From the IMG/VR virus record IMGVR_UViG_3300008113_000097, positions 1 through 44,163 of that record: DNA of 44,163 bases. One strand, 5' to 3'. This DNA comes from a virus. Positions 10,124 to 44,163 of the stretch are shown one piece after another (the stretch's first letter is position 1; each line of letters opens with the position of its first letter). Made by a program: the position numbers and the translations under genes. The notes under the pieces are model-generated. The model was not told where the DNA came from. It searched no databases and worked only from the letters and a program-made list of their open reading frames with translations.

Positions 10124-10129
10124 AACAAA

Positions 10130-10459: not shown

Positions 10460-10470
10460 GGAATAAGATT

Positions 10471-10842
10471 ATGTATTATGTAGGTATTGATGCTAGTATG
10501 GGGAATTTGTTAGGAGAAGGTAATCCTAGATATTTCTATGCACTAAGAAGAGACGAAGAAGGCACATTATATTTTGCTAAAATAGATCAGCTTACTGATA
10601 CGGGTTTAGTTACAGTAAACAATTCTGGTTTAACTGAAAATGATTACCCTGACTTTGAATACGGAGTTGATTTTTTTGATGGTCGTTTAGAAGAAGACCA
10701 TTCTAGACCGTATACAAACTTACAATGGGATCAATATCGTTGGGATAACAAACTAGCATTTTATTATATCAATACAAACGGTGAATTAATTGTGAGAATT
10801 AATCAAAACTATGTTTACGATCCTTTACAGATCGTTAGCTAA
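10471..10842 (+). CDS. Hypothetical small protein in fibre operon
   Basis: This 123-aa acidic, Tyr- and Asp-rich protein (MYYVGIDASMGNLLGEGNP, then YFYALRRDEEGTLYF, ending YVYDPLQIVS) belongs to no family I recognise. It has no signal peptide, membrane helix or metal-binding motif. AAGGA at 10458-10462 overlaps the preceding stop and fits the ATG at 10471. It sits between a small beta protein and a giant fibre gene with 11- and 15-bp gaps, so it is co-transcribed with virion genes. A minor structural or fibre-assembly role is plausible but unproven. Confidence 0.6.
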   Translation: MYYVGIDASMGNLLGEGNPRYFYALRRDEEGTLYFAKIDQLTDTGLVTVNNSGLTENDYPDFEYGVDFFDGRLEEDHSRPYTNLQWDQYRWDNKLAFYYINTNGELIVRINQNYVYDPLQIVS

Positions 10843-10857
10843 TAAGGAAAGTTACAA

Positions 10858-29826: not shown

Positions 29827-31239
29827 ATGGCACGTTTTAATACAGGACCTAGGACCCTTGTAATCTCGGGAACAACGATACTAAGCTATGCGTTTACTGG
29901 GGGAATAGTTACTTTATCAGGCGCAGGGGCCTATACTGTTACTGTTGCTAGCCCTGTATCGTTTCCGGGGACTACACAGGTATTTTATAATGGATCGTCG
30001 GCAGCTATAACTTTAGCAACGCCAGTAGGACAACTTCGAGGACCAGGCTTTACTGGTGGTGCATTTCAAACAATTGAAGCTGGCGCCTCAATGACTATAG
30101 TATCAGATGGTTCAAACTATATTATTGTTAATACAGAAGGTAACATAGTTGTTGGTACAACTGCAACGTTTACTGGAACATTAACAGCCCCAACACAAAA
30201 CGGATCAACAGCCAGCAGCGGCACTTTGATCATGCGAGGTACTAGTCATGCTACAAAAGCAGCCGCTAGTATTTTAATGGATGATAATGTTACTAGTACA
30301 AGTACAACAACTGGTACCTTAGTTATAACAGGCGGTGTTGGATTAAGCGAAAACTTATATGTAGGAGGTTCTGCTGTAAGATTTACAGCTAACTCTGCAA
30401 GTACAGGCACATCAAGTGGTACACTAGTTGTTACAGGAGGAGTAGGTGTTGGAGGCAGAATTAATGCAGCTGATTTTACAGGTACAGTTGGAGCAAACTC
30501 TGCAAATACCGGAGCATTTACTACTTTAAGTGCTAATAATACAGTATCATTAACAGCTAACCAAAGTGCTACTAACACTTCAACTGGAACACTAAGAGTA
30601 ACAGGGGGTGCTAGTTGTACAGAAAATTTATGGGTAGGTGGTTATATCGATGCAGCTAGTATGCAAGATACACCAATCGGAACAGTTACTCGAAGCTCTG
30701 CTGCTTTTACAACTCTAACAGCAAATAATTCAGTAACACTTACACAAAATGCTAGTTCAAGCAATACAGCATCAGGTACACTAGTTGTCACTGGTGGTGT
30801 TGGTATTAGTGAAAACTTATTTGTAGGTGGCGCAAGTGTAAGATTTACAGGTAACACTGGTAGTTCTAACACTAGTTCTGGTACACTGGTTGTTACAGGT
30901 GGTGTTGGTATTAGTCAAAACTGTTACGTTGGTAGCTCATTAGTTGCTGGCAGTATTTCAGAAACATCTAGCGAAACATTAAAGAGAGATATAACTCCAA
31001 TTGAAAATGCTCTAGACAAAATTCTAAATTTAACAGGCGTAACTTATTTTAGAACAGCCGATGACACATTTGAAGCAGGCTTGATTGCAGAACATGTAAA
31101 TAAGATTATACCAGAATTAGTTGGTAGAGATAGTAAAGGAAATCCTCAAACAGTCTACTATACAAAAATTACTGCTTACTTAATTGAAGCAGTTAAATCA
31201 TTAAAACATGAACTTGATAGTATAAAAGGAAAGAATTAA
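29827..31239 (+). CDS. Tail fibre with C-terminal S74 chaperone/autoprotease domain
   Basis: This 470-aa protein has a ~100-residue beta N-terminus, then about five ~50-aa repeats centred on S-G-T-L-V-V-T-G-G-V-G-I-S-E-N-L-Y-V-G-G. Residues ~377-470 form a Peptidase_S74 intramolecular chaperone domain (LKRDITPIENALDKI, then GVTYF, then AGLIAEHVNKIIPELV, and a final helix TKITAYLIEAVKSLK). S74 domains trimerise beta-helical fibres and then cut themselves off. The Ser-x4-Lys dyad of the family fits S381 and K386 (S-S-E-T-L-K), so self-cleavage is expected. An AAGTGAG-like ribosome binding site precedes the ATG. S74 assignment is strong; the fibre role follows from the family. Confidence 0.85.
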   Translation: MARFNTGPRTLVISGTTILSYAFTGGIVTLSGAGAYTVTVASPVSFPGTTQVFYNGSSAAITLATPVGQLRGPGFTGGAFQTIEAGASMTIVSDGSNYIIVNTEGNIVVGTTATFTGTLTAPTQNGSTASSGTLIMRGTSHATKAAASILMDDNVTSTSTTTGTLVITGGVGLSENLYVGGSAVRFTANSASTGTSSGTLVVTGGVGVGGRINAADFTGTVGANSANTGAFTTLSANNTVSLTANQSATNTSTGTLRVTGGASCTENLWVGGYIDAASMQDTPIGTVTRSSAAFTTLTANNSVTLTQNASSSNTASGTLVVTGGVGISENLFVGGASVRFTGNTGSSNTSSGTLVVTGGVGISQNCYVGSSLVAGSISETSSETLKRDITPIENALDKILNLTGVTYFRTADDTFEAGLIAEHVNKIIPELVGRDSKGNPQTVYYTKITAYLIEAVKSLKHELDSIKGKN

Positions 31240-31241
31240 AC

Positions 31242-32237
31242 ATGGCAACATTACAAGATACAACGATTGCTAGTGCAGGTTATTTAAGATTACCTGTTGG
31301 TAATACTGGACAACGCGGCCAAAATGGTGCCGGGAGCATTAGATATAACACAGATCAAAGTGCAGCCGAAATATGGAATGGTACTGGTTGGAATAGAGTT
31401 GCAACAATTGCACCCCCGTTCCCCCCAGGACAAAGTAATTATACTAGTGGAGGAACATACACATGGACTGCACCTAGTCCGGTAACTACAGTTAACGTTC
31501 TAGCTATCGGCGGTGGTGGTGGTGGCACAGACAACTGGGCAAACCCCGGCGGCGCCGGAGCTGGAACAGGTTGGGCAAACAATATTCCAGTAACACCAGG
31601 CACTGGTTATACAGTAGTAGTTGGAGGTGGTGGCGGCAACGGTGGTAACGGCGGAACTAGTTACTTTCAATCAACAGCTACAGTATCAGGATACGGTGGC
31701 GGATCAGGGTGGTCAGGACAAACAGGCGGCCCTAGTAGTAACGGACGCGGCGGTGGCTATACAGGCGGTGGTGGTGGTGCTGGTGGTAATGCTACTGATT
31801 GGACTGGAGGTGGTGGTGCAGGCGGATATACTGGCCGAGGCGGCAACTTAAACGAATGGGCTCCAGCTGGAGGTGGCGGTGCAGGCGGATTCCATCATAG
31901 TTCACACCTCGGAACAGGCGGTGGTGGAGGTGTTGGAATTTATGGACAAGGGAATCCTGGACAAGGGTTTTATACTCCATGGAACGGACAAAATAGTCCA
32001 GGCGGCGGCGGTCTTGGCGGATCAGGTGGCCAGCTAGGCTTATGGGGACAAAACCCATGGAGTTATAGTGGCGTAGAATCTAATAACATTTACGGCGGAA
32101 CATACGGCGGCGGCGGCGGAGGTCCAGGAACAGGCTGGCCTGCATCATCAGGTAACGGTGGCTCAGGAGCAGTTAGGGTTATTTGGGGTACAACTGTAAC
32201 TAGAGCATATCCAAGTACAGGTACAGGAGATCTATAA
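31242..32237 (+). CDS. Glycine-rich adhesin-like fibre-tip protein
   Basis: Of 331 aa, residues ~17-57 contain the 'R-L-P-V-G-N-T-G-Q-R' then 'SIRYNTDQSAAEIWNGTGW' fibre unit. Residues ~68-95 are a beta strand pair (YTSGGTYTWTAPSPVTTVNV). From ~95 to 310 there are repeated polyglycine runs (GGGGGG, GGGGGNGGNGG, GGGGGAGG) separated by Trp/Tyr/Asn-rich loops. It ends in a GAVRVIWG strand. Glycine-rich sandwiches of this kind occur in phage adhesins, T-even gp38 being the classical functional analogue, where variable loops between glycine runs set receptor choice. Homology to gp38 is not claimed. The gene starts 2 bp after the preceding stop and overlaps the next start by one base (TAATG). Confidence 0.7.
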   Translation: MATLQDTTIASAGYLRLPVGNTGQRGQNGAGSIRYNTDQSAAEIWNGTGWNRVATIAPPFPPGQSNYTSGGTYTWTAPSPVTTVNVLAIGGGGGGTDNWANPGGAGAGTGWANNIPVTPGTGYTVVVGGGGGNGGNGGTSYFQSTATVSGYGGGSGWSGQTGGPSSNGRGGGYTGGGGGAGGNATDWTGGGGAGGYTGRGGNLNEWAPAGGGGAGGFHHSSHLGTGGGGGVGIYGQGNPGQGFYTPWNGQNSPGGGGLGGSGGQLGLWGQNPWSYSGVESNNIYGGTYGGGGGGPGTGWPASSGNGGSGAVRVIWGTTVTRAYPSTGTGDL

Positions 32238-32833
32238 TGGATGAAGAACTATACATTAGAATGTTAAACGGACGTCCGGTAGATCATCCTATGTTGCGAA
32301 GTAATATTGAATCTTCATTTCCAGATGTAGATTTTGATAACTTACCAGACTGGTTAGCTAGATTTGAAAGAGTTCAAAAACCTCATACAGAAGGACCTTA
32401 TGAAATTGTAAACGGCCCGGTATATGTTGTTGTTGGGGATACTGTAAAAGATCAATGGATTAAGCGTGAAATGACCGACGAAGAAAAGTTATTAAAACAA
32501 ACTAGAGCTAGAACGAATTTTCTAGCTGACGAAGGCAATGCTACTCGTCGATCAACATGGGTGTTTGATGAAATCCAATGTGCATTCATTCCTCCTATAC
32601 CACACCCAACAGACGGCAAGGGGTATCTTTGGAGTGATGCTAATCAAAACTGGATAGAGGTAATACCGCCAGAAAGACCTGAATGGATTGAAGGCACTGG
32701 AGGAATTCGACGCAAACCTCTTCCTTTAGAACCTGGACACTGGGTATGGAACGAAGAAACATCAGATTGGGTGAAAAATTCAGATTCACCTAATTCAAGT
32801 ATGCAAGAACCTCCTCCGTTCCCTCTTCCGTAA
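32237..32833 (+). CDS. Hypothetical Trp/Pro-rich protein, possible fibre assembly or tip protein
   Basis: This 198-aa acidic protein has three loosely repeated units with the pattern W-x-(F/W)-(D/N)-E-x-x-x-x-x-F/W-x-P/K (STWVFDEIQCAFIPP; GYLWSDANQNWIEVIPPE; GHWVWNEETSDWVKN), after a charged helix TDEEKLLKQTRAR. It ends in a Pro-rich tail. I do not recognise the family. Position directly after an adhesin-like gene, with a one-base stop/start overlap, is where tail-fibre assembly chaperones often lie, but the sequence alone does not establish that. CAGGAGA (32224-32230) is the ribosome binding site. The gene ends 23 bp before a strong terminator. Confidence 0.6.
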   Translation: MDEELYIRMLNGRPVDHPMLRSNIESSFPDVDFDNLPDWLARFERVQKPHTEGPYEIVNGPVYVVVGDTVKDQWIKREMTDEEKLLKQTRARTNFLADEGNATRRSTWVFDEIQCAFIPPIPHPTDGKGYLWSDANQNWIEVIPPERPEWIEGTGGIRRKPLPLEPGHWVWNEETSDWVKNSDSPNSSMQEPPPFPLP

Positions 32834-32856: not shown

Positions 32857-32890
32857 AACCCTTGATAACTAATATTATCAAGGGTTTTTT
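32857..32890 (+). terminator. Intrinsic terminator ending the fibre operon
   Basis: A perfect 12-bp stem (AACCCTTGATAA 32857-32868, loop CTAATA, TTATCAAGGGTT 32875-32886) is followed by an unbroken T run ending at 32890. The ATG of the next gene begins at 32891, so its only plausible ribosome binding site (AAGGG, 32880-32884) lies in the 3' arm of the terminator stem. Confidence 0.9.
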
Positions 32891-33508
32891 ATGAGTAATT
32901 ACAAAGGTATATCAAATTCAATTAGATCTAGATCTTTAATAACACAGCCTTTTTGTTACTGGACTGGTGTTTTTAATGATCGAGAATTAAGTGAGATTCA
33001 AAGAATTATGGCCAACGATTCGTTAACTGATTCAATGATATCTGGAAATGTTGGAGTTATTGATAAAGATATACGCCGATCTAAAGTTAGCTTTTGTACT
33101 TGTACTGAACAAACTCAATGGATATTTGATAGACTAAATCCTATTATTGATAATTTAAATACTAGATTTTTTAATTTTGATATTAACGGATATGATACTT
33201 TACAGTATAGCGAGTATCATGCTAGTGAAAATGGAAAATATGACTGGCACGTTGATATGTATGTGGGAGAGATGCCGCCTACTGACATAGATACAAGAAA
33301 ACTATCATTAGTTGTTTGGTTAAATGACGACTACGAAGGCGGAGATTTTGAATTAATTTGTACCTCGCTCGACAGTCCTGTTACTATACCTAAAGAAAAA
33401 GGAAAATTAATTATATTCCCTTCGTTTTTATTTCATAGAGTTACACCAGTAACACGCGGTGTTAGGAAATCTTTAGTATCTTGGATATACGGACCTAAAT
33501 TTAAGTAA
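32891..33508 (+). CDS. 2OG-Fe(II) oxygenase, prolyl-4-hydroxylase/PKHD-like
   Basis: This 205-aa protein is the length of a single double-stranded beta-helix (cupin) dioxygenase. The iron facial triad is visible: H120-x-D122 (Y-D-W-H-V-D-M-Y) and H182 (FPSFLFHRVTPV). R192 lies ten residues on, as expected for binding 2-oxoglutarate. G-G-D-F (YEGGDFEL) and GKLIIFPS are typical of the P4H/PKHD group. The reaction would be hydroxylation of an unknown peptide or small molecule using O2 and 2-oxoglutarate. It is the first gene of the enzyme island; the start abuts the U-tract of the terminator and the ribosome binding site is inside its stem. Its 3' end overlaps the convergent next gene by 8 bp. 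Confidence 0.85.
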   Translation: MSNYKGISNSIRSRSLITQPFCYWTGVFNDRELSEIQRIMANDSLTDSMISGNVGVIDKDIRRSKVSFCTCTEQTQWIFDRLNPIIDNLNTRFFNFDINGYDTLQYSEYHASENGKYDWHVDMYVGEMPPTDIDTRKLSLVVWLNDDYEGGDFELICTSLDSPVTIPKEKGKLIIFPSFLFHRVTPVTRGVRKSLVSWIYGPKFK

Positions 33509-34034
33509 CGTCCCAATTATAAAAATTAAAATTTATTACACAACGATTTTTTGCATTAGTACATGTTGTACCAGTATGCATAATGTTAGAGTCAAAAATT
33601 ACCATTCGATTAGCTACTGAATGTACTCGCTCACCGTTTTGAAATAGTGTATAACCGTCGTTAGAGTTAAGATAAAATACCGCAGTTTTTCCTTTGAAAT
33701 TTAATATATCTGTATGTAACTGGTGTTCAACAATTTTATCTGCTCTAGGTATAAGATTAGCTTTTATTTTTAATATAGCTGAAGGATTAAGTTTTATCAA
33801 GATGGGATCTAATACTTGAAAAAACTCACTGCACATTGAATAGTTCCTATAAAATGAATGTGTAAACTGATAATCGTAATAAGATGGTAAGTCACTTTTT
33901 TCAGCATTATTTAGAAGAGCATGATTTACAATATACTCATTTTGAAACCAAGGGATATGCGACCCTAACAAAACATCTTGCAACTTTTCAAAATCTGTTT
34001 TGTTTAAGAAATCATCAACAATTTTAAAATTCAT
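33501..34034 (-). CDS. 2OG-Fe(II) oxygenase (divergent)
   Basis: With the ATG at 34034 the protein is 177 aa (MNFKIVDDFLN). An upstream in-frame ATG at 34082 would add 16 hydrophobic/basic residues and overlap the divergent halogenase start, so I prefer the shorter form. The triad is H107-x-D109 (H-Q-L-H-T-D) and H153 (NIMHTG), with R164 as the likely 2-oxoglutarate-binding Arg. TLFQNGERVHSVANRMVIFD is typical of the fold. The substrate is unknown. No ribosome binding site precedes 34034, and a CATAAATA element ends 5 bp upstream, raising the possibility of a leaderless transcript. Transcribed towards 32891-33508 with an 8-bp overlap. Confidence 0.78.
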   Translation of the reverse strand: MNFKIVDDFLNKTDFEKLQDVLLGSHIPWFQNEYIVNHALLNNAEKSDLPSYYDYQFTHSFYRNYSMCSEFFQVLDPILIKLNPSAILKIKANLIPRADKIVEHQLHTDILNFKGKTAVFYLNSNDGYTLFQNGERVHSVANRMVIFDSNIMHTGTTCTNAKNRCVINFNFYNWDVT

Positions 34035-34039
34035 GAAAA

Positions 34040-34069
34040 TATTTATGATGAATTTTTTTAACGTAAATA
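34040..34069. promoter_or_regulatory. Divergent late-promoter-like pair between oxygenase and halogenase
   Basis: The 39-bp space between divergent start codons (34034 on -, 34074 on +) holds CATAAATA on the minus strand (34047-34040) and CGTAAATA on the plus strand (34062-34069). In T4 late promoters, transcription begins about 6 nt after this octamer, which would place both starts at or within one base of the start codons. The plus-strand match is imperfect and the DNA is AT-rich, so chance is possible. Confidence 0.4.
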
Positions 34070-34073
34070 AAAG

Positions 34074-35540
34074 ATGAAACATACAAACTCAATCTTAATT
34101 GTGGGCGGCGGCACAGCAGCCTTAATAGCCGGAATAATTCTTAAGAAAAAGTTAAACATTAGAGTAGACATAGTCCATTCTTCAAACATTGGTATTATTG
34201 GTGTAGGCGAAAGCAGTACAGAACACTGGAGAGAATTTTGTACTTTTGTAGGAATAAATCACGTTGAAGCATTAGTAGCTTGTAATGCCACTTACAAAAC
34301 AGGTATAACTTTTAAAGGCTGGGGCAAAAAAACATGGATACATCATGTTAATCCAGATTTTGCAAAAAAATGGGGACAATATTCTCCTATATATGCTAAA
34401 CAAATAGCAGAAGATAATTCTTATCTAGCACCTGATTTTATAAAGAATAACAAATTACCAAAACACCTTCTTAATAAACCTGAAGTATGGCCTGCTAACC
34501 AGTTTAATTTTGATACTTATAAACTAAACGAATATCTCACTTCAATAGCTAAATCATTTGGTATTAATTTCTATGACGACGAAATTAATGAAATCTTTTT
34601 AGACGATCAAGGAAACATTAAAAATTTAAAAGGTAACAAACTTACCTATGAATACGATTTTTATTTAGATTGTACAGGTTTCAAGAGATTACTAATGAAT
34701 AAACTAGGATGCGAATGGCAGAGTTTTTCAAAATATTTAAAAACTAATTCAGCAATAGTATTTCAAACTCCTGATACTGAAAATTACGAAGTAACAGTGC
34801 TTGCTCAAGCAATGGATTATGGATGGATGTTTAGAATTCCAACATACGGTCGATACGGAAACGGATATGTTTTTGATAATAATCACATAACACCAGAGCA
34901 AGCTAAACAAGAAGTTGAATCAAAATATTTTAAAGATATTGATGTGAGAAAAGTTATTACTTTTGATCCAGGTCAGGTTAAAGAGTCTTGGATCAAAAAT
35001 TGTGTAGCTGTAGGACTAAGCGGAAGTTTTATTGAGCCTTTAGAAGCAACTAGTATATCCACAACTATCCAACAAGCATTTGTACTAATGCATCACTTGC
35101 CATTTTACGATGATAAATCGATAAAGAAATATAATAGAAGTTTTACTGATATACTTGAAAACATTCGTGATTTTATTATAATACATTATCTAAACAAAAG
35201 TGAAAAAACAAACTTTTGGAAAGAGTATAATCAAATCAAACTACCAGATTCTTTACAAGAAAATTTAGATATATGGAAACATAGACTTCCTATAGCTGAA
35301 GATTTCTCACACCTATCATCATATGTATTGTTCCATGCTGATAACTTTACATTAGCTCTTAACGGTGTAGATCATTTTGATAAAGAATCAATTAGAAAAG
35401 AGTACAAGGCACAAAATCCGTATATACACGCTGAATCTGAAAAACAACTTGACTATTTAAAATATCAAGACGGCAATACTGTTTGTATTAATCATAAAGA
35501 TTTTGTATCATTAACAAGAGGGGTTTTTAATGTCAATTGA
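34074..35540 (+). CDS. Flavin-dependent halogenase (tryptophan-halogenase family) 1
   Basis: This 488-aa protein is close to the usual length of PrnA/RebH-type halogenases. A FAD-binding Rossmann motif (IVGGGTAALIAG, residues 9-20) is followed by GVGESST (43-49), the catalytic-type lysine K75 (T-Y-K-T-G-I-T-F), and the conserved E-P-L-E motif from E321 (SFIEPLEATS). Family enzymes use FADH2, O2 and halide to make HOX, relayed by the Lys to an electron-rich substrate. The family signature W-x-W-x-I-P is altered to W251-M-F-R-I-P256. A phage member, VirX1 of cyanophage Syn10, is a characterised halogenase. No ribosome binding site precedes the ATG. It overlaps the next oxygenase gene by 11 bp (operon). 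Needs a flavin reductase, none of which is seen here. Confidence 0.88.
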   Translation: MKHTNSILIVGGGTAALIAGIILKKKLNIRVDIVHSSNIGIIGVGESSTEHWREFCTFVGINHVEALVACNATYKTGITFKGWGKKTWIHHVNPDFAKKWGQYSPIYAKQIAEDNSYLAPDFIKNNKLPKHLLNKPEVWPANQFNFDTYKLNEYLTSIAKSFGINFYDDEINEIFLDDQGNIKNLKGNKLTYEYDFYLDCTGFKRLLMNKLGCEWQSFSKYLKTNSAIVFQTPDTENYEVTVLAQAMDYGWMFRIPTYGRYGNGYVFDNNHITPEQAKQEVESKYFKDIDVRKVITFDPGQVKESWIKNCVAVGLSGSFIEPLEATSISTTIQQAFVLMHHLPFYDDKSIKKYNRSFTDILENIRDFIIIHYLNKSEKTNFWKEYNQIKLPDSLQENLDIWKHRLPIAEDFSHLSSYVLFHADNFTLALNGVDHFDKESIRKEYKAQNPYIHAESEKQLDYLKYQDGNTVCINHKDFVSLTRGVFNVN

Positions 35541-36141
35541 GATGGTATTTCCTATTCCAGTAATGCTGGACAAATTCCATAGGTCTTTAACAACTGAAGA
35601 AATAGATTACGCAAGATCCGTTTCTTTAAGAAAAAATGTTTCTAATCGTAGTTCTTCTGAGACATATGTTCTTAAAAATCCTATGTTTAAAGAATTAGGT
35701 AACTGGTTAGATTCTAAAGCAAAGAAATTTTTTCATGATATCTATAGCCCATCAGGTCAAGTAGAACTATATATTACCCAATCGTGGATTAATCACAGTG
35801 GAGTTGGTGAAGAGCATCATGTACATGCACACCCAAATAGCATTGTTAGCGGAGTTTTTTATTTTGATGCAGATCCAACCGTTGATAAAATTACTTTTGT
35901 AAAAACTATTACTAAAGATATTGATATAATTCCTGTACAATATAATCCTTTTAATTCAAATACCTGGTATTATAGTGTTGATATTGGACAATTAGTATTG
36001 TTCCCATCGACCTTAAAACATACTGTTGAATCTGTTTTGCCTTCACCAAAACGTAAAACAAGAATCAGTTTGTCATTTAATACATTTATTAGAGGACATA
36101 TAAATCCAGGCATTGAGTTATCGGAGTTAATATTACCATGA
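35530..36141 (+). CDS. 2OG-Fe(II) oxygenase, 2OG-FeII_Oxy_5-like (HxHPNS type) 1
   Basis: This 203-aa protein carries the EEHHVHAHPNSIVSGVFYF block (H97, H99, H101), which is typical of the PF13759-type putative oxygenases that use a H-x-H-x-x-S motif. A distal H164 lies in FPSTLKHTVESV and R178 in TRISLSF. The family is abundant in marine phages and its substrates are unknown. The start lies inside the end of the halogenase gene (11-bp overlap) with AAGAGGGG just upstream, so translation is probably coupled. It overlaps the next oxygenase by 4 bp. A homologue of the same subfamily sits next to halogenase 2 on the other strand, so the halogenase/Oxy_5 pairing occurs twice. Confidence 0.82.
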   Translation: MSIEMVFPIPVMLDKFHRSLTTEEIDYARSVSLRKNVSNRSSSETYVLKNPMFKELGNWLDSKAKKFFHDIYSPSGQVELYITQSWINHSGVGEEHHVHAHPNSIVSGVFYFDADPTVDKITFVKTITKDIDIIPVQYNPFNSNTWYYSVDIGQLVLFPSTLKHTVESVLPSPKRKTRISLSFNTFIRGHINPGIELSELILP

Positions 36142-36695
36142 ATTACGATTTACGTAACTATTGCAAAGTATATCATAATTACTTTGATGAAGAGTTTTGT
36201 ACCAAAATACTTAATTCAATTAATACAGTTGAATGGGGTGTTCATCGATACTATACACAAACTGGAGAGTACGTAAGTACTGATACTGATTTATCAGTAT
36301 CATTTAGTGAAATACCAGAAAGTTATAATATACATAATGCAACAGGACAACTAGTAACGCATTATCAACAAGAGCTTAACTTTCCATGGTATGGTAGCTT
36401 TCATGCCACTACTACTGCTCGGTTCAACAGATACGATAAAAATACAAATATGATGCCTCACTGTGATCATATACATTCTTTATTTGACGGCGAAAGAAAA
36501 GGCATACCGATATTGTCAATTGTTGGTTCATTAAATAATGATTATACAGGCGGCGAATTCATAATGTGGAACGAAGAAAAAATAGACCTTCCAGCAGGTT
36601 CCGTAATGATCTTCCCAAGTAATTTTTTATATCCGCACGAAGTTAAACCTGTCATAACAGGAACTAGATATAGTTTTGTTCAGTGGGTTTGGTAA
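36138..36695 (+). CDS. 2OG-Fe(II) oxygenase, prolyl-4-hydroxylase-like
   Basis: This 185-aa protein has its triad at H108-x-D110 (M-P-H-C-D-H) and H167 (YPHEVKPV), with R177 for 2-oxoglutarate. GGEFIMWN, then LPAGSVMIFPS is the standard P4H core. The N-terminal half (VYHNYFDEEFCTKIL) matches the typical entry helix of small phage P4H-like proteins. It overlaps the upstream oxygenase by 4 bp (ATGA), making it the third gene of a halogenase-oxygenase-oxygenase operon. Its stop codon abuts the stop of the convergent carbamoyltransferase with no intervening base (36695/36696), and no terminator fits between them. Confidence 0.85.
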   Translation: MNYDLRNYCKVYHNYFDEEFCTKILNSINTVEWGVHRYYTQTGEYVSTDTDLSVSFSEIPESYNIHNATGQLVTHYQQELNFPWYGSFHATTTARFNRYDKNTNMMPHCDHIHSLFDGERKGIPILSIVGSLNNDYTGGEFIMWNEEKIDLPAGSVMIFPSNFLYPHEVKPVITGTRYSFVQWVW

Positions 36696-38396
36696 TTATT
36701 TAAAGTATATCAACGTTTTGATATCTGGCATATACAAATAATTAATCCCAGAATTCCTGCATGATTCAAATGCACCTTCTACTGTCTCAATAATAGGTTC
36801 ATGGCTAAGATTAAAACTAGTGTTCATTAACATAGGAATGCCAGTTTTTTTATAAAATTCTGAAATTAAATTGTAGAAAACTATATTTTGATTTTGATTT
36901 ACTGTTTGAATTCTACAAGTACCATTGACATGCACTACAGCTGGAACTTGTTCTTTAGCATTATCCTTAGCATCTAATGCAAACATCATAAATGGACTAG
37001 ACTCTAACCCATGCAGTTCGAACCATTTATTAGCTTCTTCTTCGAGTATAGAGGCAGCGAACGGTCTAAATTCTTCTCTACCCTTAACTACGTTAAGTAA
37101 TTCTTTACCATTTGTAAGTCTTGGATCACACAGTAATGATCTATTACCTAATGCTCTAGGTCCTGATTCTGCTTTACCTTGAAATAATGCAACAACACTT
37201 CCGCTCTTAATTACTTCAGCAACTGTTGCTTCATCAACATTTTTATATTCAAGTTCTCCGTCTTGAATTTTATAATTATATGTAGGCTCTGCTCCGCATA
37301 GATAGACATTTTTAAGTTTATTAGCCTCTGTACTACCGCAATTTTCATAGTAATAATATCTAGCCATACCTATACAATTTGCTTCATCACCACATGTGGG
37401 TTCTACATACATATTAATATTTGGAAGATTCTTTTTATAATAGTTGTTAGCTACAACGTTTAAAGATACACCACCTGTTAAAATTAAATTGTTTCTTCCT
37501 GATTTTTTTAAAATTTTCTCTAAAAAATTTAGACCTTGGGTTTCTAAATTCTTTTGTGTTATGTACGCTAAATTTGAAAGCTTTTCTTGATTATTCATAG
37601 CTTCTGAATACTTACCCCATGCAAAATGTCTATGATTGAAATTAGCATCAAAATAATGTGACGACATATCAAAAATACCTTGCTCATTTATAAAAGGTTT
37701 AAAATAGTCATCATCTTTACCGTAAGCAGACAATCCCAACATTTTGCCACCTTCGTCGTCGAATCCTAATGATCTACTCATTGCTTCATACTGTAATCCT
37801 ATATCATAGTCGTTTCTGATTTCAATTGTAGCATTTTTTGTTTGCCAGACTGGCCAGTTTTCTTTCGATGCTCCAAAACCGTTATCCCAAATAATTGTTG
37901 TATTATTGTCTATTTTTCTAGGAGTATAAAATCTTTTATAGATTGCTGTAAAATTATTAGGGTATTTGGCTAAAAACACTGTAGTAGTTTCGTATGCAGA
38001 ATAGCCGTTATTTAATGAATAACAAGATCCTTTTCCGTCCCATACAACAATTACAGCATCTTTCATTCCAGAATTATAAAAAGCATTGGCAGCGTGAGCA
38101 AGGTGATGATTTCTATTATTATAATGATAAGAAAATCTTCGACTAAATTTAACACCTAGTTTTCTTAGCAAGGAAATTATTGAGATATCTTCACTTTTGT
38201 ATGAATCGTAACCAGTAATTACTAGTTTGTCTATAGTTTTGTTTAATTTAACAATTTCTTTAATACAATTTAAAGGAAACCCAGAATCTCTTTTTATTCT
38301 AGAAAGACGCTCTTCTTGATTAAAATATATAATGTTATTATTTTCTAATAAGCATACAGATGATAGGTGATGCTTTTGAATACCTAAAGTAATCAT
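36696..38396 (-). CDS. O-carbamoyltransferase, NodU/CmcH/TobZ family
   Basis: This 566-aa protein is full length for the family. The N-terminal Kae1/ASKHA-like domain begins ITLGIQKHHLSSVCLLENN and carries the metal-binding H97-H98-L-A-H101-A motif, followed by VVWDGKGS. The C-terminal YrdC-like domain contains VVALFQGKAESGPRALGNRS (about 402-421), which binds carbamoyl-adenylate, and later GIPMLMNTSFN. Family members use carbamoyl phosphate and ATP to transfer a carbamoyl group to a hydroxyl of a sugar or natural product (Nod factor, tobramycin, cephalosporin). It is the last gene of a minus-strand operon and overlaps halogenase 2 by 4 bp. A hydroxylated product of a neighbouring oxygenase is an attractive but untested acceptor. 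Confidence 0.9.
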   Translation of the reverse strand: MITLGIQKHHLSSVCLLENNNIIYFNQEERLSRIKRDSGFPLNCIKEIVKLNKTIDKLVITGYDSYKSEDISIISLLRKLGVKFSRRFSYHYNNRNHHLAHAANAFYNSGMKDAVIVVWDGKGSCYSLNNGYSAYETTTVFLAKYPNNFTAIYKRFYTPRKIDNNTTIIWDNGFGASKENWPVWQTKNATIEIRNDYDIGLQYEAMSRSLGFDDEGGKMLGLSAYGKDDDYFKPFINEQGIFDMSSHYFDANFNHRHFAWGKYSEAMNNQEKLSNLAYITQKNLETQGLNFLEKILKKSGRNNLILTGGVSLNVVANNYYKKNLPNINMYVEPTCGDEANCIGMARYYYYENCGSTEANKLKNVYLCGAEPTYNYKIQDGELEYKNVDEATVAEVIKSGSVVALFQGKAESGPRALGNRSLLCDPRLTNGKELLNVVKGREEFRPFAASILEEEANKWFELHGLESSPFMMFALDAKDNAKEQVPAVVHVNGTCRIQTVNQNQNIVFYNLISEFYKKTGIPMLMNTSFNLSHEPIIETVEGAFESCRNSGINYLYMPDIKTLIYFK

Positions 38397-39865
38397 ACAG
38401 GTCCTCTTTGTAAATGTTGTAATAAATCTTTATGATATGGAGCTTCGCTATGCATATCATTTAATATCTTTTTATATAAATCAAGAGATTGAAATATATC
38501 TTCATAAAATGCTAGTTTAAATTTTTGTTTGAACATATCTAGTCCGTGAGCAACTAATAAAAAACTATATATAGGAAAATGACAGGTAGCAAACACATTT
38601 GTTACATCTAATGGTCTTAAATTAGCATACTCTATTCTATGAATAAATTCTTTTAAATGATCAGGAGTTTTATTTTTTTCTCTAAATTCACGCCAAAACA
38701 AACTATCATTTCTTTTAGTTAGATAATGGAAGTATACAAAATCAGCACACAAGTCAGTTCCTTCTGTTACCATCTTGTTGTAAGTTTTTTGCGATTCTGC
38801 ACTAGGATCAAATATTTCGTTAATATACGATTTAAAATTATTTAACTGCATCAAAGCTAACCACAATGATGTTGATTCTAAAGGTTCTAAGAAATTAGCA
38901 CTAAGACCGACTGCTAGACAATTTTTGATCCATACTTCGTCGTATCTACCCGGATCAAACGAAATAATTTTTCTAATATCAATTTCGTGACCTAAGTATT
39001 CTTCTGCTTCTTGTTTAGCTTGATCTACAGAAATATAGTCTGAGTCGAATACATATCCTGCACCTATTCTATGTTGCAACGGAATGTTCCACATCCAACC
39101 GTTTTTCATAGCAATACTAGATGTATACGGAGCAACATCGTTTTTATTTTCTAACCAAAACGGTATTGCTTTTTTTGCAGGCAAAAATTTACTATAGCTT
39201 TGCCATTTAGATTTATATAGCTTTCCTATTAGTAAACGAGAAAAACCTGTACAATCAAAAACAAAATCACAGTCAATTATTTTTTCGCTTTGTAGTTTTA
39301 AAGATTTTATAAATCCATTATGATCTAAAACAGGTTCTAAAAATATGTCATCGATAACTTGCACACCACGAGATTTTCCTATATCTTCTAAATAGTCCGC
39401 AAACTTAACTGAATCAAAATGTAGTGCATATTTTGTATTTTTTAAATCAACCTTGTTGTTACTAGATAATTTAATTTGATACATGTAGTCTTCAAAGTTT
39501 AAATTTTTATTAATTAAGAATGCTTGAAAGTAATGATTAAAATCTACATCACTAAACGTGCCTATGTTAGTTGAAGACATAGATTCTGTAAAGTCATGAA
39601 AATATTTAGAATTATCGCCATTCCAGTTTTCAAAACTTATACCGTTTTTTATCGATCCGTTGGTAACTCGTATCATATCTAAATGATCAATATCATGATC
39701 TTTTAACCATTTTACTAGATGCGGAGTAGTAGCTTCACCTACTCCGATTATACCTATTTCTTTACTCTGAATTAACGTGATAGAAGCTTGGGGTAGCAAT
39801 TTTTGCATAGATATTGCGGTAATCCAACCTGCCGTGCCACCACCTAAAATTACAAATTTTGTCAT
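38393..39865 (-). CDS. Flavin-dependent halogenase (tryptophan-halogenase family) 2
   Basis: This 490-aa protein is the most canonical of the three. It has Rossmann G8-G-G-T-A-G-W14, G-V-G-E-A-T-T (41-47), lysine K73 (S-I-K-N-G-I-S-F-E-N-W), the intact signature W257-M-W-N-I-P262, and E327 in FLEPLESTS. All elements known to be needed in PrnA/RebH are present, so activity is expected. The substrate cannot be read from sequence and may well not be free tryptophan. The ATG overlaps the upstream Oxy_5-type oxygenase by 4 bp, and its stop overlaps the carbamoyltransferase start by 4 bp. The three genes therefore form one translationally coupled unit: oxygenase, halogenase, carbamoyltransferase. 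Confidence 0.92.
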   Translation of the reverse strand: MTKFVILGGGTAGWITAISMQKLLPQASITLIQSKEIGIIGVGEATTPHLVKWLKDHDIDHLDMIRVTNGSIKNGISFENWNGDNSKYFHDFTESMSSTNIGTFSDVDFNHYFQAFLINKNLNFEDYMYQIKLSSNNKVDLKNTKYALHFDSVKFADYLEDIGKSRGVQVIDDIFLEPVLDHNGFIKSLKLQSEKIIDCDFVFDCTGFSRLLIGKLYKSKWQSYSKFLPAKKAIPFWLENKNDVAPYTSSIAMKNGWMWNIPLQHRIGAGYVFDSDYISVDQAKQEAEEYLGHEIDIRKIISFDPGRYDEVWIKNCLAVGLSANFLEPLESTSLWLALMQLNNFKSYINEIFDPSAESQKTYNKMVTEGTDLCADFVYFHYLTKRNDSLFWREFREKNKTPDHLKEFIHRIEYANLRPLDVTNVFATCHFPIYSFLLVAHGLDMFKQKFKLAFYEDIFQSLDLYKKILNDMHSEAPYHKDLLQHLQRGPV

Positions 39866-40458
39866 AGTCCGGATATTCCTGCATTAAATGCTATTGAGAT
39901 TCTGTCAGAATCTAACAAGTTAGGTTCGACATAATGATTTAAAAACGATGGAAATATTATTAAGTCTCCTGGTTTAGGTTGAATACGCCATGTGCCGGAT
40001 GTAAAATCATTCCAGTCAGTAACAATATCGGGATTAATATGATATTGAAAATTTATAGCAGGATGTAAAAATACTATGCCACCTCCAACTTGCTCATCAG
40101 ATTTAACATAATAGCTTCCTGAAAAAATAGACTTTGGATGTACATGTGGTCTATTAAAAGCAGACACTGGATTAATATTAATCCAAATATTTTCTAACGA
40201 TATTGTATTTTTTTCTGTCTTAAGTTTCCAACACTCGGCAACTTTTGTAAGATTGTGATGAATCAAATCCGCTAGTTTTCCTATTTCTGCATTCGGAATA
40301 GATAGCGAATCACTTTGCCAACCGCCTGCATTGCTTTTTAAAACACCGGTTGAGTTCTCTTTACAGTGGTAGCAATAATTTATAAGCTCATTATTGTCAA
40401 TTTCTGTAAGTGATGTAGATGCAATAAAGCTCGTAAAAACTGTTTCTATTTTAAGCAT
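39862..40458 (-). CDS. 2OG-Fe(II) oxygenase, 2OG-FeII_Oxy_5-like (HxHPKS type) 2
   Basis: This 198-aa protein has H105-x-H107 in FNRPHVHPKSIFSGSYYV, distal H175 in FPSFLNHYVEP and R186 in DRISIAFN, the same layout as 35530-36141. IQPKPGDLIIFPS precedes the distal His as in the family. It is the first gene of the minus-strand operon. The ribosome binding site upstream of the ATG is poor. A GATAAATA element on the minus strand (40488-40481) would give a leader of about 16 nt. It is divergent from halogenase 3 across a 42-bp gap. Confidence 0.82.
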   Translation of the reverse strand: MLKIETVFTSFIASTSLTEIDNNELINYCYHCKENSTGVLKSNAGGWQSDSLSIPNAEIGKLADLIHHNLTKVAECWKLKTEKNTISLENIWININPVSAFNRPHVHPKSIFSGSYYVKSDEQVGGGIVFLHPAINFQYHINPDIVTDWNDFTSGTWRIQPKPGDLIIFPSFLNHYVEPNLLDSDRISIAFNAGISGL

Positions 40459-40460
40459 TT

Positions 40461-40494
40461 CATAAATAATATTAGCACTTTATTTATCAAGGGT
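40461..40494. promoter_or_regulatory. Overlapping opposed late-promoter-like pair plus shared RBS leader
   Basis: CATAAATA (+, 40461-40468) and GATAAATA (-, 40488-40481) form a perfect 8-bp inverted repeat (40462-40469/40480-40487) with a 10-nt loop. Each promoter lies on the far side from its own gene, so predicted transcripts would start at almost the same spot and cross the opposite promoter. TTATCAAGGGT (40484-40494), which supplies the AAGGG ribosome binding site of the ATG at 40501, is identical to 32875-32885 upstream of the oxygenase at 32891. Confidence 0.5.
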
Positions 40495-40500
40495 CAATTT

Positions 40501-42093
40501 ATGCATATAACAATTTTAGGCGGTGGAACAGCAGGATGGATAGCAGCTCTTATGCTATGTAAGAATCATCCTAATCATACATTTAGTGTGGTAGCATCTA
40601 AAAGTGTAGGAATTTTAGGAGCAGGTGAAGCTGTCACTGGGGCATTGACTGCCTTGGTTTGCGGATTCTACGGAGACCTTGGAATTGATCCTTTAGATTT
40701 TTTAAGAAAAACAAAAGCTATGCCTAAGTATGCAATCTATCATAAAGGTTGGACTAACGATATTAACAAAGGATACTTAGGCCCTATTGATGGAACATTA
40801 ACAACTTGTAATATTCCCGACGATGTGTTTACATATTTGGTAGCACAAAATCATGATAAAAAACATTTAGGTGCTTTTATGGGTAATCTTGTTGAATACG
40901 ACATTTCACCTATAAGCAAAATTACGCATGAATTTGAAGAAACTAGTCATGCCTTTCACTTTGACGCAAAAGAAGCAGCTATCTATTTAGAAAATGTTAC
41001 TTTAAAGAATAGTAATTGCAAATTAATTGACAAAAAAGTTGTAGACGTAAAGTTAGACGAAAGTGGTAATATTAGCTCATTGTTATTCGAAGATCAAAGC
41101 GTACATGAAAGTGATTTCTTTATCGATGCATCTGGATTCTCAAGAATCCTAATGAACAAACTAGAAACTAAATGGGTTAGTTACAAAAAATGGTTACCAA
41201 TAAATGCAGGGTTACCGTTCTTTATTGATTATAAAGAAAATGAGGCACCAAAGCCTTATAGTGTTGCCTGGGCACAAAAAGCTGGATGGTACTGGGAAGC
41301 TAGTGTACAAACACGAAAAGGATGTGGTTATACATTCTGTGAAGATTTTATATCGTTTGACCAAGCTCACGCTGAGATAGAACAAGCATTAGGCCATAGT
41401 ATTACACCTATTAACAAATTTAGATTTGACACTGGTAGATTAGAAAATACCTGGGTAAAAAATTGTTTAGCTATAGGACTAGCTAGTTCATTTGCAGAAC
41501 CTTTAGAAGCAACTAGTATTCATAGTACTATTCAACAAATTAAACATTTTTGTTTTGAATTTTTAAGAGATAACAAAGAAGACACACTAAATCCTGCTTC
41601 TATTAACTTGTATAACAAAAGAGTTAACGGAATGTTTGATGACTATAAAGAATTTTTAGTTAGTCATTACTTAGGAGGCAGAGATGACAGTGAGTTTTGG
41701 AAGTATATTTCTGCAGGTAACACACTTACTGACTTTAATAGAAATTTACGTGAAACATGTAAATCTCGTATTCCGTCAATTTATGATTTTCCAGGATACC
41801 CAGGAGCTGCTGGGTGGACTATATGGTGCTGGATCTTAGCAGGTACCAATCAAATTACACCTGAAGTAGCAAGAAAAAATCTATCTCAACCAATGATTGA
41901 TAAGGCTATTGAAAAACTAAATCAAATGAGTGTTACAGCTCATAGAATGGAATTAACACATTATAAATTTGCTGATTATAGATCGCATGTTAATATGCCT
42001 GATTTAAAATATGTACGTTGGCGTGGAAAAGACTTCCAAGGGCTACAGCATGATTATATACAAAACACTAAAGCACATCAATTATATCAATAA
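40501..42093 (+). CDS. Flavin-dependent halogenase (tryptophan-halogenase family) 3, divergent
   Basis: This 530-aa protein has the Rossmann motif G7-G-G-T-A-G-W13, GAGEAVTG (40-47), lysine K76 (A-M-P-K-Y-A-I-Y-H-K-G-W) and E333 in FAEPLEATS. The W-x-W-x-I-P signature reads W263-Y-W-E-A-S268, so the Ile-Pro is lost. A ~40-residue longer C-terminal part (from about 430: YPGAAGWTIWCWILAG) sets it apart from the other two. Catalytic Lys and Glu are kept, so halogenation remains likely, perhaps on a different substrate, though monooxygenase-type activity cannot be excluded. AAGGG at 40489-40493 is the ribosome binding site. Its 3' end overlaps the convergent Nudix gene by 26 bp. Confidence 0.85.
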   Translation: MHITILGGGTAGWIAALMLCKNHPNHTFSVVASKSVGILGAGEAVTGALTALVCGFYGDLGIDPLDFLRKTKAMPKYAIYHKGWTNDINKGYLGPIDGTLTTCNIPDDVFTYLVAQNHDKKHLGAFMGNLVEYDISPISKITHEFEETSHAFHFDAKEAAIYLENVTLKNSNCKLIDKKVVDVKLDESGNISSLLFEDQSVHESDFFIDASGFSRILMNKLETKWVSYKKWLPINAGLPFFIDYKENEAPKPYSVAWAQKAGWYWEASVQTRKGCGYTFCEDFISFDQAHAEIEQALGHSITPINKFRFDTGRLENTWVKNCLAIGLASSFAEPLEATSIHSTIQQIKHFCFEFLRDNKEDTLNPASINLYNKRVNGMFDDYKEFLVSHYLGGRDDSEFWKYISAGNTLTDFNRNLRETCKSRIPSIYDFPGYPGAAGWTIWCWILAGTNQITPEVARKNLSQPMIDKAIEKLNQMSVTAHRMELTHYKFADYRSHVNMPDLKYVRWRGKDFQGLQHDYIQNTKAHQLYQ

Positions 42094-42511
42094 TTGTAGA
42101 AATTTTGTTTTCTAGATGACGATTTCTTAAACTTAAATCTAGGCCTTTATGTAAAGGCTTAGGTAAATGCTTTAAATCAAACCAACCCCATGCACAATGT
42201 TCAGAGCTTAGTTGCGGAATAAATTCCTCTGTTACTAAACAAAAATAAGTTTGAAATTTAAAATGTTGGTCGTTACTAACAAATTTTTCTAAAGGTATAG
42301 TTTTAGTAATTGATTGTTCGCCTATTTCTTCTTTGATTTCTCGTGACAATCCCTGCCATGCCGACTCTCCGTCTATATGAGTGCCGCCAACTAATCCCCA
42401 GTACCCTGTATGCTTACCTTCAGCTTTTTGTAATAACAAAAATCTTTTTGTAGATTTAGAACAAATTAATGCACCAGAGCATTCAACGGTTTTTATAGAG
42501 CTATTCTCCAT
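42068..42511 (-). CDS. Nudix hydrolase
   Basis: This 147-aa protein is a single Nudix fold. The Nudix box is complete at residues 43-64: G43-x5-E49-x7-R57-E58-I-K-E61-E62-I-G64. It hydrolyses X-linked nucleoside diphosphates; WGLVGG, then FQTYFCLVTEEF and HCAWGWFDLKHLP resemble MutT/dGTP-pyrophosphohydrolase-like members, but substrate cannot be assigned. Phage Nudix enzymes may cleanse nucleotide pools, decap RNA or handle NAD/ADP-ribose. AGGGGA precedes the ATG, which lies inside the 3' end of the gp15-like gene (19-bp overlap), so it is co-transcribed with tail genes. Convergent with halogenase 3 by 26 bp. Confidence 0.9.
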   Translation of the reverse strand: MENSSIKTVECSGALICSKSTKRFLLLQKAEGKHTGYWGLVGGTHIDGESAWQGLSREIKEEIGEQSITKTIPLEKFVSNDQHFKFQTYFCLVTEEFIPQLSSEHCAWGWFDLKHLPKPLHKGLDLSLRNRHLENKISTIIDIIDVL

Positions 42512-44163
42512 TGTCCCCTCTTATACTCGCCCTCAAATGATTTGCTCCATTGTACACCGTTCCATTTATACTGTGTATTTGTATAGAAATTAGTTTGGTA
42601 TACTATGTTATCAGTAACCTCGTCAGCACTAAAAATTACTACCCACTTAGTACCATCCCATTCAATAATGTCATTAGCTTCGGCTAAACCATCAGTGCCG
42701 TTAGAATTTTTCCACGCATCTGGACCGTCTTCGTTTACATTTAACTCGTACTCGATTTCATCGTCTGGATCTATCATGTTAGAAGCAACGATAATAAATT
42801 CTCTATCAGGCGGAATACCCTTAACATTAAATGTTAAAATTGAACCACTGCCATTTACTGTTAGTACAGTAATTAAACAGTCGTTTGTGATATTAACACC
42901 GCCTAAAAATCTACCTCTAACCCGCACTTTATCACCAGGGGCATATCCTGTCCCTGTGTTATTAATTACTGCACTATAAGATGCTGTAGCTAAATGTATA
43001 GTTACATCAAATGTAGCATTTTGTGCTGGCCCTGTAAAATTTTTAGAAGGTTTGTCATAATATACAGGATCAGGTTGAGGATTTGAAATTACTTCAACAC
43101 CGTTTACATATAATTTATGATCGTTGATTTTTTTAGCAAGAGTATTTGTATGTATTAGATTAGTTCTATTTGACGACGTAAATCTATCACGGATTGCTCC
43201 ACCAATACCGTCTACTAATAAGTAACGTTTTCCAGCAGCTATCGGCTGATCAGTTTTTTCTTTGTTTGGTCGTTTTGGATTAAATGTAGTAGGATCTACA
43301 ATAGCATCAAAAAAACCGTATTCGTTAATAGGTCTTACTGGACCAGGAATAGCAGTGTTAGACGGAAACGTATCTGGATCCCAGGAAGCTACTAACATTG
43401 TTAGGTCTGTAGGATGAAAACTTATAGACCCTACTACTTCTGTGTCGTTTGGCTGTCTTAAATATATTTTACTTAATCCGCTAGTTAATTTACCAGGAAA
43501 CTGCTGCACAATCATATCCCATGCTAACCAATTGTTTATTCCTATAGTAGTGTTGCGAGCTTTAATTATTGTAGTTTCAACTAGAATATCAAAATTTCCC
43601 ACGCTTACTCGTTGATCAAACATTTTGTTTATAGGATCAACTTGACCAACTGCTATGTCTGTTGCTAGTCCATCTATATAATCTAGATGTGGATCACTTT
43701 TGTTTTCAAAAATATTGTTAATAATATTAGTAATAATACCTAACTTTTTAACCTTAACTGGTGGACTAATATAGATAGGAGTTTTGAGTGTAAGCGTAGC
43801 TACATCGATTGCAGAATTTGTACCTGTCGGTACGCTTCGAGAAGTGAATGTTACATCTTGTAATTCTAGTACACTAATAGAAGTCCAGTCAATGTAATTG
43901 TCAGTGGTTTGTAGTTCAAGGCTAGGATTGAATAATACTAGTATTTGCTCTAGTATTTGTAATTTTTGCTCGGTACTAGTCGACCAAATGTCAACTTTAA
44001 GAGTAAGATCGAACGGAGTAGGCATCAATCGTTCAACAGTGTAATTAGCTCCTTCGGAGTAGACGTAATCACCAGTAGCATCATCAATATCTCTTTCTCT
44101 TATGTGCAATTTACTAACAAAACTACTGTCACTTAATCTATCTCTAGCTAGATCTAGGTCATT
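42493..44163 (-). CDS. gp15-like tail sheath stabiliser/completion protein with long C-terminal extension (5' truncated by window)
   Basis: The open frame runs off the right edge with no stop (18 codons upstream of a TTG at 44109 are open, reading NDLDLARDRLSDSSFVSK), so the start is outside. The first ~110 visible residues match the T4 gp15 core: MPTPFDLTLKVDIWSTS, then LQILEQILVLFNPSLELQ, a strand with DVTFTSRSVPTG, then TLTLKTPIYISPPVKVKK. gp15 forms the terminator ring joining the tail tube and sheath to the neck. T4 gp15 is 272 aa, while at least 557 are present here. The extra C-terminus includes a G-x-G-Y-x-x-G-D-K-V-R-V-R-G module shared with the fibre genes and ends with DIIEWDGTKW, then QYKWNGVQW and GEYKRGQW. 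The extension is unlike T4 and may be a decoration domain. Confidence 0.8.
   Translation of the reverse strand, partial: NDLDLARDRLSDSSFVSKLHIRERDIDDATGDYVYSEGANYTVERLMPTPFDLTLKVDIWSTSTEQKLQILEQILVLFNPSLELQTTDNYIDWTSISVLELQDVTFTSRSVPTGTNSAIDVATLTLKTPIYISPPVKVKKLGIITNIINNIFENKSDPHLDYIDGLATDIAVGQVDPINKMFDQRVSVGNFDILVETTIIKARNTTIGINNWLAWDMIVQQFPGKLTSGLSKIYLRQPNDTEVVGSISFHPTDLTMLVASWDPDTFPSNTAIPGPVRPINEYGFFDAIVDPTTFNPKRPNKEKTDQPIAAGKRYLLVDGIGGAIRDRFTSSNRTNLIHTNTLAKKINDHKLYVNGVEVISNPQPDPVYYDKPSKNFTGPAQNATFDVTIHLATASYSAVINNTGTGYAPGDKVRVRGRFLGGVNITNDCLITVLTVNGSGSILTFNVKGIPPDREFIIVASNMIDPDDEIEYELNVNEDGPDAWKNSNGTDGLAEANDIIEWDGTKWVVIFSADEVTDNIVYQTNFYTNTQYKWNGVQWSKSFEGEYKRGQWRIAL
42820..43030 (-). other. 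Module shared between gp15-like protein and fibre proteins
   Basis: The gp15-like extension contains A-T-F-D-V-T-I-H-x(6)-Y-S-A-V-I-N-N-T-G-T-G-Y-A-P-G-D-K-V-R-V-R-G-R-F-L-G-G, then N-D-C-L-I-T-V. The same ~70-aa unit occurs at about 14253-14460 (ATFNVIV, then VTINAGGSGY, then ILGTQLGGTSPANDL) and 20065-20290 (AKFNIVR, then ANYAAGDRLKILGSSLGG). Boundaries are approximate. Confidence 0.75.

Follow-up and report, generated by a model that had tools for sequence, protein, structure and literature searches.

Gene clusters in which a flavin-dependent halogenase occurs together with other tailoring enzymes are already known from cyanophages. Iyer et al. (2021) described a cluster of carbamoyltransferases, a halogenase and 2-oxoglutarate (2OG) enzymes in S-SSM6a, for which capsule decoration or a secondary metabolite was proposed (PMC7824862), and the halogenases and carbamoyltransferases of cyanophages were tabulated in 2010 (PMC3037559). 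A further comparable locus is the hypervariable 'host recognition cluster' between the tail fibres and the neck of HTVC008M and the pelagimyophages, which in the pelagimyophages was described for its glycosyltransferases and not for halogenases (PMC7029224). Here, an island of nine enzyme genes is analyzed, which is located at positions 32891-42093 of the IMG/VR virus record IMGVR_UViG_3300008113_000097, a linear virus fragment of 44,163 nucleotides (referred to as the window). The island contains three halogenases (H1-H3), five 2OG-Fe(II) oxygenases (O1-O5) and one carbamoyltransferase (CT) and lies beside the tail-tip genes, as do the islands of other phages.

Enzyme content of the island and of related loci

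Pfam and PHROGs concur in identifying three flavin halogenases, five 2OG-Fe(II) oxygenases and one NodU/TobZ-type O-carbamoyltransferase, and both this gene content and the phage origin agree with an original prediction for the stretch. The genes follow each other almost without gaps in the order O1 (+), O2 (-), H1-O3-O4 (+), CT-H2-O5 (-) and H3 (+). The halogenases H1 (34074-35540, plus strand), H2 (38393-39865, minus strand) and H3 (40501-42093, plus strand) match PF04820 across the whole domain with 301, 367 and 287 bits at a cut-off of 21 bits. Among the oxygenases, O1 (32891-33508, plus strand, 56.6 bits) and O4 (36138-36695, plus strand, 50.5 bits) match PF13640, while O3 (35530-36141, plus strand, 66.9 bits) and O5 (39862-40458, minus strand, 76.8 bits) match PF13759, all four scoring past the cut-off with 50-77 bits. 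The weakest family assignment of the nine is that of O2 (33501-34082, minus strand), which matches phrog_274 with 169 bits and PF13640 with 25.1 bits, slightly below the Pfam cut-off of 27. CT (36696-38396, minus strand) contains both carbamoyltransferase domains (PF16861, 197.2 bits; PF02543, 70.9 bits) and is homologous to GdmN and TobZ, with the HHxxHA motif. Since the Pfam E-values across the nine genes range from 3.5e-5 to 1.5e-109, chance matches are excluded.

Neighboring genes overlap by 11 and 4 bp within 34074-36695 on the plus strand and by 4 and 4 bp within 36696-40458 on the minus strand. The overlaps of 4-11 bp that had been claimed for coupled operons are thus real, but their pattern points to two short operons on opposite strands and additional single genes, not to one operon. 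As a side observation, several PHROGs (phrog_274, phrog_1644, phrog_2297, phrog_3531 and phrog_2954) carry misleading names such as 'DNA endonuclease V', 'minor coat protein' or 'ferrochelatase' for 2OG-oxygenase/DUF6445 proteins, and these names were carried into the GenBank annotation of cyanophages, where they conceal the islands.

Like the window, the S-SSM6a/S-SSM7 cluster combines halogenase, carbamoyltransferase and 2OG oxygenases; it directly follows a large structural gene with Gly_rich_2 genes, and in S-SSM7 it lies ahead of gp13. It differs in having one full halogenase, two carbamoyltransferases, and sugar kinase/heptose and methylase genes, whereas the three halogenases of the window come from three clades and are accompanied by one carbamoyltransferase and by no sugar gene. 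The island of syn9/Syn10, which encodes VirX1 (PDB 6qgm), resembles the window in its tandem halogenases and many 2OG/JmjC/DUF6445 genes following the fibre and Gly_rich_2 genes. Its two halogenases both belong to the VirX1 clade, which is not represented in the window, no carbamoyltransferase was seen, and all genes are on one strand. HTVC008M shares Gly_rich_2, five listed 2OG-type genes and a halogenase of the clade of H2, but possesses only this one halogenase. Outside the phages, loci of Sphingomonas, Colwellia, Pseudidiomarina and Arsukibacterium also have one or more PF04820 genes beside a gene for a large surface protein, and in four of five bacterial loci checked (L085, L090, L101, L128) a TonB-dependent receptor gene adjoins the halogenases. 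These bacterial loci differ by separate halogenase clades, by their chromosomal location and by lacking fibre genes.

The gene combination is therefore known already (PMC7824862), and the window is a richer variant of it, which does not support the original suggestion that three halogenases in one phage locus are the most likely novelty. Of the 33 related IMG/VR records, most that exceed 20 kb have between three and six PF04820 genes. Three or more halogenases were found in 17 of 78 dereplicated viral loci, a collection gathered by halogenase queries whose counts are not frequencies among all phages. A 2OG gene lies within 5 kb in 56 of these 78 loci, and at least three such genes in 33. The cultured phage S-RIM44 has three halogenases (two of them in the island locus), and in culture P-TIM40 and syn9 each have two, P-TIM40 with an additional shorter match. 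The idea that three halogenases in one phage are unique was rejected on the basis of S-RIM44, the related records and the 17 loci.

Position of the islands at the tail-tip genes

Judged from gene order, the islands of cyanophages, the pelagiphage and the uncultured clade of the window share a single homologous position, flanked by the tail-tip genes (distal fibre, glycine-rich adhesin-like proteins) on one side and the neck or sheath-stabiliser genes on the other, and this position appears to be previously unreported. In S-RIM44, syn9, P-TIM40, P-RSM6, S-WAM1 and S-SSM7 the island comes after the fibre and Gly_rich_2 genes, with gp13 at its far end where this was observed (S-RIM44, S-SSM7), and in HTVC008M the halogenase is located immediately beyond the neck genes. 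In the uncultured relatives, the recurring order is fibres, S74 fibre, one to three glycine-rich genes and a reshuffled halogenase/2OG set, past which many contigs have an OX61-type oxygenase pair and/or a pair of NUDIX and sheath-stabiliser genes. In G026 (152.8 kb), all four halogenases lie within 11.4 kb beside adhesin genes; they are found together with 12 of the 13 recognised 2OG genes at 7.5-26.1 kb, and the glycine-rich genes at 26.1-29.5 kb.

The distance between both gene types was tested against a rotation null in nine cultured genomes, related to one another, with both a halogenase and a Gly_rich_2 match; S-H38 and S-PM2 have a halogenase and no such match and stand outside the test. 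Within 8 kb of Gly_rich_2, 10 of 14 halogenases were found, compared to 1.3 expected (rotation P ≤ 5e-5). For PF13759 genes the numbers are 25 of 94 and 8.4 (P 5e-5), and phages that lack a full-length halogenase are among those counted. A scan for glycine-rich relatives confirmed at least 16 loci, most of them via short segments, and co-occurrence was tested from Gly_rich_2 instead.

The uneven spread of the halogenases over the genomes, seen in the distance test and in G026, also bears on the question whether the locus is merely an insertion hotspot, with the enzymes being unrelated cargo that serves separate host-directed roles in auxiliary metabolism, antibiotic protection, 2OG/nitrogen signalling or nucleic-acid repair. 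The hypervariability of the locus is known (PMC7029224), PF13759 genes are spread all over cyanophage genomes too, and earlier proposals exist for antibiotic protection by phage halogenases (PMC2984593) and for DNA repair or 2OG draw-down by phage 2OG enzymes (PMC3037559). Nevertheless, such an assembly is considered unlikely in view of the narrow content of the islands, in which halogenases, double-stranded beta-helix oxygenases and few partners recur jointly, e.g., phrog_7084, which adjoins halogenases in syn9 as well as in the uncultured clade.

In the window, baseplate-wedge proteins are encoded upstream of the island, followed by two giant tail-fibre proteins related to phrog_9851 (10858-19002, 2714 residues; 19040-29470, 3476 residues) and a distal tail-fibre protein with an S74 chaperone domain (29827-31239, plus strand; PF13884, 44.7 bits; phrog_5668, tail fibre). 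The next gene (31242-32237, plus strand) encodes a glycine-rich adhesin-like protein (phrog_4474, 110.8 bits; phrog_6005, virion structural protein) with 32% glycine and no lysine, whose N-terminal domain is common to phage structural proteins and which is homologous to the GLY genes matching PF21722 (Gly_rich_2). Its structure model was too poor for use, with a predicted local distance difference test (pLDDT) score of 52, and a sequence search of the PDB gave no match. Between this gene and the island, a small Trp/Pro-rich protein (32237-32833, plus strand) with a weak match to phrog_7759 and none to Pfam is encoded. It is followed by a terminator-like hairpin with a 12-bp stem and a T-rich tail (32857-32886, plus strand). 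Seven such hairpins were found in comparison to 6.1 expected by chance, and this one has the longest stem, so that a terminator separating the island from the tail operon is suggestive only.

On the other side, a NUDIX hydrolase (42068-42511, minus strand; PF00293, 57.6 bits) is a backbone gene outside the island, and a tail sheath stabiliser of the T4 gp15 type (42493-44163, minus strand; PF16724, 54 bits; phrog_11196) forms the far border and extends past the window end. This pair is common to PA5oct-like phages and is also present in the jumbo phage Paride, there without the island. With fibre, S74 and glycine-rich genes on one flank and T4-gp15_tss on the other, the layout corresponds to a T4-like host recognition locus; VrlC and gp14 were not found in the 44-kb window. 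The nearest relatives of the sheath stabiliser are those of the jumbo phages PA5oct, Paride and Atu_ph07, and the nearest baseplate relatives are from cyanophages; the record may be a piece of a jumbo phage genome.

A second contig of 16,247 bases from a different metagenome contains the island at ~100% identity, and a 51.6-kb contig (L032/L062) has the identical gene order at 39-68% identity. Two further loci (L041 and L159) are variants of the island. An assembly chimera was ruled out because independent contigs bear the same island. There is likewise no sign of a recent import: the G + C content of the island is 31.6% compared to 34.6-38.2% for the wedge and fibre genes, but the third-position G + C content is alike (0.20-0.22). 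Another variant (L058 of G021, 4580-16826) combines three halogenases with two carbamoyltransferases and additionally encodes a HAD phosphatase, a DUF6445 protein and a tail-assembly chaperone. In L018, a GroEL-like chaperonin gene (3-1670, 555 residues; phrog_5725, 477 bits) borders a multi-halogenase island, and unidentified genes for proteins of ~554 residues occupy its place in several relatives.

Halogenase clades, catalytic residues and predicted fold

In a tree of 209 halogenases (FastTree, midpoint root, only SH-like support values and no bootstrap), H1 groups with P-SSM2 and S-H38, H2 with pelagiphage HTVC008M and H3 with uncultured phages only. Two further phage clades are marked by VirX1 and S-SSM7, and most bacterial homologues are separate. 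All five of these old phage clades have members in the tail-tip locus. As H1, H2 and H3 belong to three separate clades, a recent tandem duplication was ruled out, and the three enzymes represent a kit rather than duplicates.

The syn9 protein gp42 is VirX1 (1271 bits over 530 residues), to our knowledge the only characterised phage halogenase, so that VirX1 itself is encoded in a tail-tip island. The original prediction had cited VirX1 as an example of a single phage halogenase and had missed this multi-enzyme context, which comprises another halogenase and some ten additional genes, including 2OG, DUF6445 and JmjC_2 members. A DUF6445 protein of syn9 shows a weak overlap with the 2OG profile. 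Beside VirX1, gp49 (L009:16543-17253) is a ribosomal-oxygenase-like member of JmjC_2 (PF08007), the family of the ribosomal oxygenases, and its presence is a hint at protein substrates.

The catalytic residues were taken from an alignment to PrnA, in whose numbering they are given, and compared among 93 rows, namely H1, H2, H3 and 90 other non-identical phage proteins. Lys79 and Glu346 are retained in H1, H2 and H3. Each of the two occurs in 92 of the 93 rows, the exceptions being a gap in a truncated contig for Lys79 and a Gln in the third S-RIM44 copy for Glu346. The motif for flavin adenine dinucleotide (FAD) is kept in all three enzymes, with H1 reading GGGTAA instead of GGGTAG. The WxWxIP region reads WMFRIP in H1, WMWNIP in H2 (the sole exact match) and WYWEAS in H3, and is also variable among other phage halogenases. 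The FAD motif, Lys79 and Glu346 are shared with the tryptophan halogenases PrnA and RebH, which act on free tryptophan in antibiotic pathways.

The iron/2OG motif takes two forms among the five oxygenases, and the original prediction of intact motifs in nearly all enzymes was right. O1, O2 and O4 have HxD...H...R, which is kept in 70 of 71 relatives of O2, whereas O3 and O5 carry HxH...H...R. The latter is invariant in all 113 aligned phage PF13759 rows, at a place where 2OG enzymes usually have HxD/E, and a three-histidine iron site is possible from this pattern. Altogether, the triads are invariant or almost so in two of three oxygenase families. The predicted structure of O5 (pLDDT 87) matches 2OG oxygenases in Foldseek with E-values down to 2e-11. 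Two uncharacterised PF13759 structures (3bvc, 2rg4) rank first, followed by the prolyl-4-hydroxylase of P. putida, the collagen prolyl hydroxylase of PBCV-1 (vCPH) and PHD2. O5 is accordingly predicted to adopt a double-stranded beta-helix fold resembling prolyl-4-hydroxylases; for the other four oxygenases, this fold is indicated by their profile matches.

Among relatives of the island, the ratios of nonsynonymous to synonymous substitution rates are 0.07-0.34, rough figures due to saturated synonymous sites, and place the enzymes under purifying selection. These values well under 1, the near-invariance of Lys79 and Glu346 across 90 phage proteins and the kept 2OG triads make it very unlikely that the enzymes are decaying or non-catalytic and retained as structural or binding proteins. 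The reuse of other flavoprotein folds, the deviation of H3 from WxWxIP and the Gln of the third S-RIM44 copy would speak for such a role, whereas VirX1, from an island of this type, is reportedly enzymatically active.

Proposed function of the island

The island probably serves to decorate either the tail proteins of the phage itself or the surface of the host. With considerable reservation, we favor the first, a modification module for the neighboring receptor-binding tail proteins (long fibres, S74 distal fibre and glycine-rich tip protein), because the position, the protein-hydroxylase-like oxygenases and the missing scaffold genes concur. The S74 fibre (29827-31239) and the glycine-rich protein (31242-32237) are candidate substrates. 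All nine island genes encode tailoring enzymes, and no scaffold-building enzyme such as a nonribosomal peptide synthetase, a polyketide synthase, a precursor of a ribosomally synthesized and post-translationally modified peptide, or similar was found among them, which argues against a self-contained small-molecule pathway. The original prediction had rightly named a virion protein or surface glycan as a possible substrate, but had overlooked the location next to the tail tip and the lack of a scaffold-making gene.

For tail modification, the halogenases would act late in infection and form hypohalous acid from reduced FAD (supplied by a host flavin reductase), oxygen and a halide, and Lys79 and Glu346 would steer it to aromatic side chains. 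Hydroxylation of side chains would be the task of the five 2OG oxygenases, as it is for related prolyl and ribosomal protein hydroxylases, and CT would carbamoylate hydroxyls, perhaps those made by the oxygenases. As a result, not only mutation but also gene shuffling could alter the tail-tip chemistry.

Several observations weigh against the modification of tail proteins. In their Trp and Tyr contents, the glycine-rich proteins of phages with halogenases do not differ from those of phages lacking them (P 0.48 and 0.28; 4 versus 16 proteins), and those of S-RIM44 contain only 0-2 Trp, so that the glycine-rich proteins are at least no obvious Trp substrate; if tail proteins are modified, the targets may be the fibres or other residues. 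VirX1 is said to accept small aromatic molecules in vitro. Halogenases are located far from the tail tip in S-PM2, S-B64, P-SSM2 and for the third S-RIM44 copy. Furthermore, the hypervariable pelagiphage locus at the equivalent place encodes glycosyltransferases that are believed to modify the surface of the host (PMC7029224), and the S-SSM7 island contains heptose/sugar genes, for which reason the position alone cannot separate the tail from the host surface.

The last two observations lead to the main rival explanation, ahead of unrelated hotspot cargo as the third: the enzymes tailor a host surface glycan (capsule or lipopolysaccharide, excluding competing phages) or make a halogenated, carbamoylated metabolite during infection. 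Such a role has been suggested for the S-SSM6a cluster, whose enzyme families are the same (PMC7824862), and it fits the glycosyltransferases of the pelagiphage locus (PMC7029224), the heptose kinase/isomerase genes of S-SSM7 and the carbamoylation of sugars and antibiotics by NodU/TobZ-type enzymes such as the homologues GdmN and TobZ. Among the nine island genes, no sugar-nucleotide, glycosyltransferase, export, sugar/heptose or HemK-like methylase gene was found. Flavin halogenases, moreover, require electron-rich aromatic rings and not sugars, which counts against this explanation, and several halogenases of different clades per island exceed the need of one product. The unidentified genes sampled from the islands of relatives matched DUF6445 proteins, methyltransferases and a fused 2OG protein, as well as a HAD phosphatase and a tail-assembly chaperone, but no scaffold-building enzyme. 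Tailoring of the host surface or of a small molecule is therefore regarded as possible but rather improbable.

With regard to phage halogenases in general, no natural substrate is stated in the openly accessible literature, the main VirX1 paper not included, and no proposal of tail modification as their role was found in the searchable literature, which excludes subscription journals and that paper. Such halogenases have figured among the auxiliary metabolic genes of phages since 2010 or earlier, and the structure of VirX1 has been solved; interest is added by the recurrent tail-tip position, the kit of several clades and the link to VirX1. The tail-tip position across lineages, including the genome encoding VirX1, is the strongest lead to a function. 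It is conceivable, though held with more caution than the tail modification proposed for the window, that many aquatic tailed phages halogenate, hydroxylate and carbamoylate their own tail tips by means of exchangeable islands with halogenases of up to five old clades, oxygenases and sometimes a carbamoyltransferase. If true, enzyme-made chemistry would diversify host recognition besides sequence change, and a natural role, missing so far, would be at hand for VirX1 and other viral halogenases. In addition, the many halogenase clades offer enzymes with a possible activity on large substrates.

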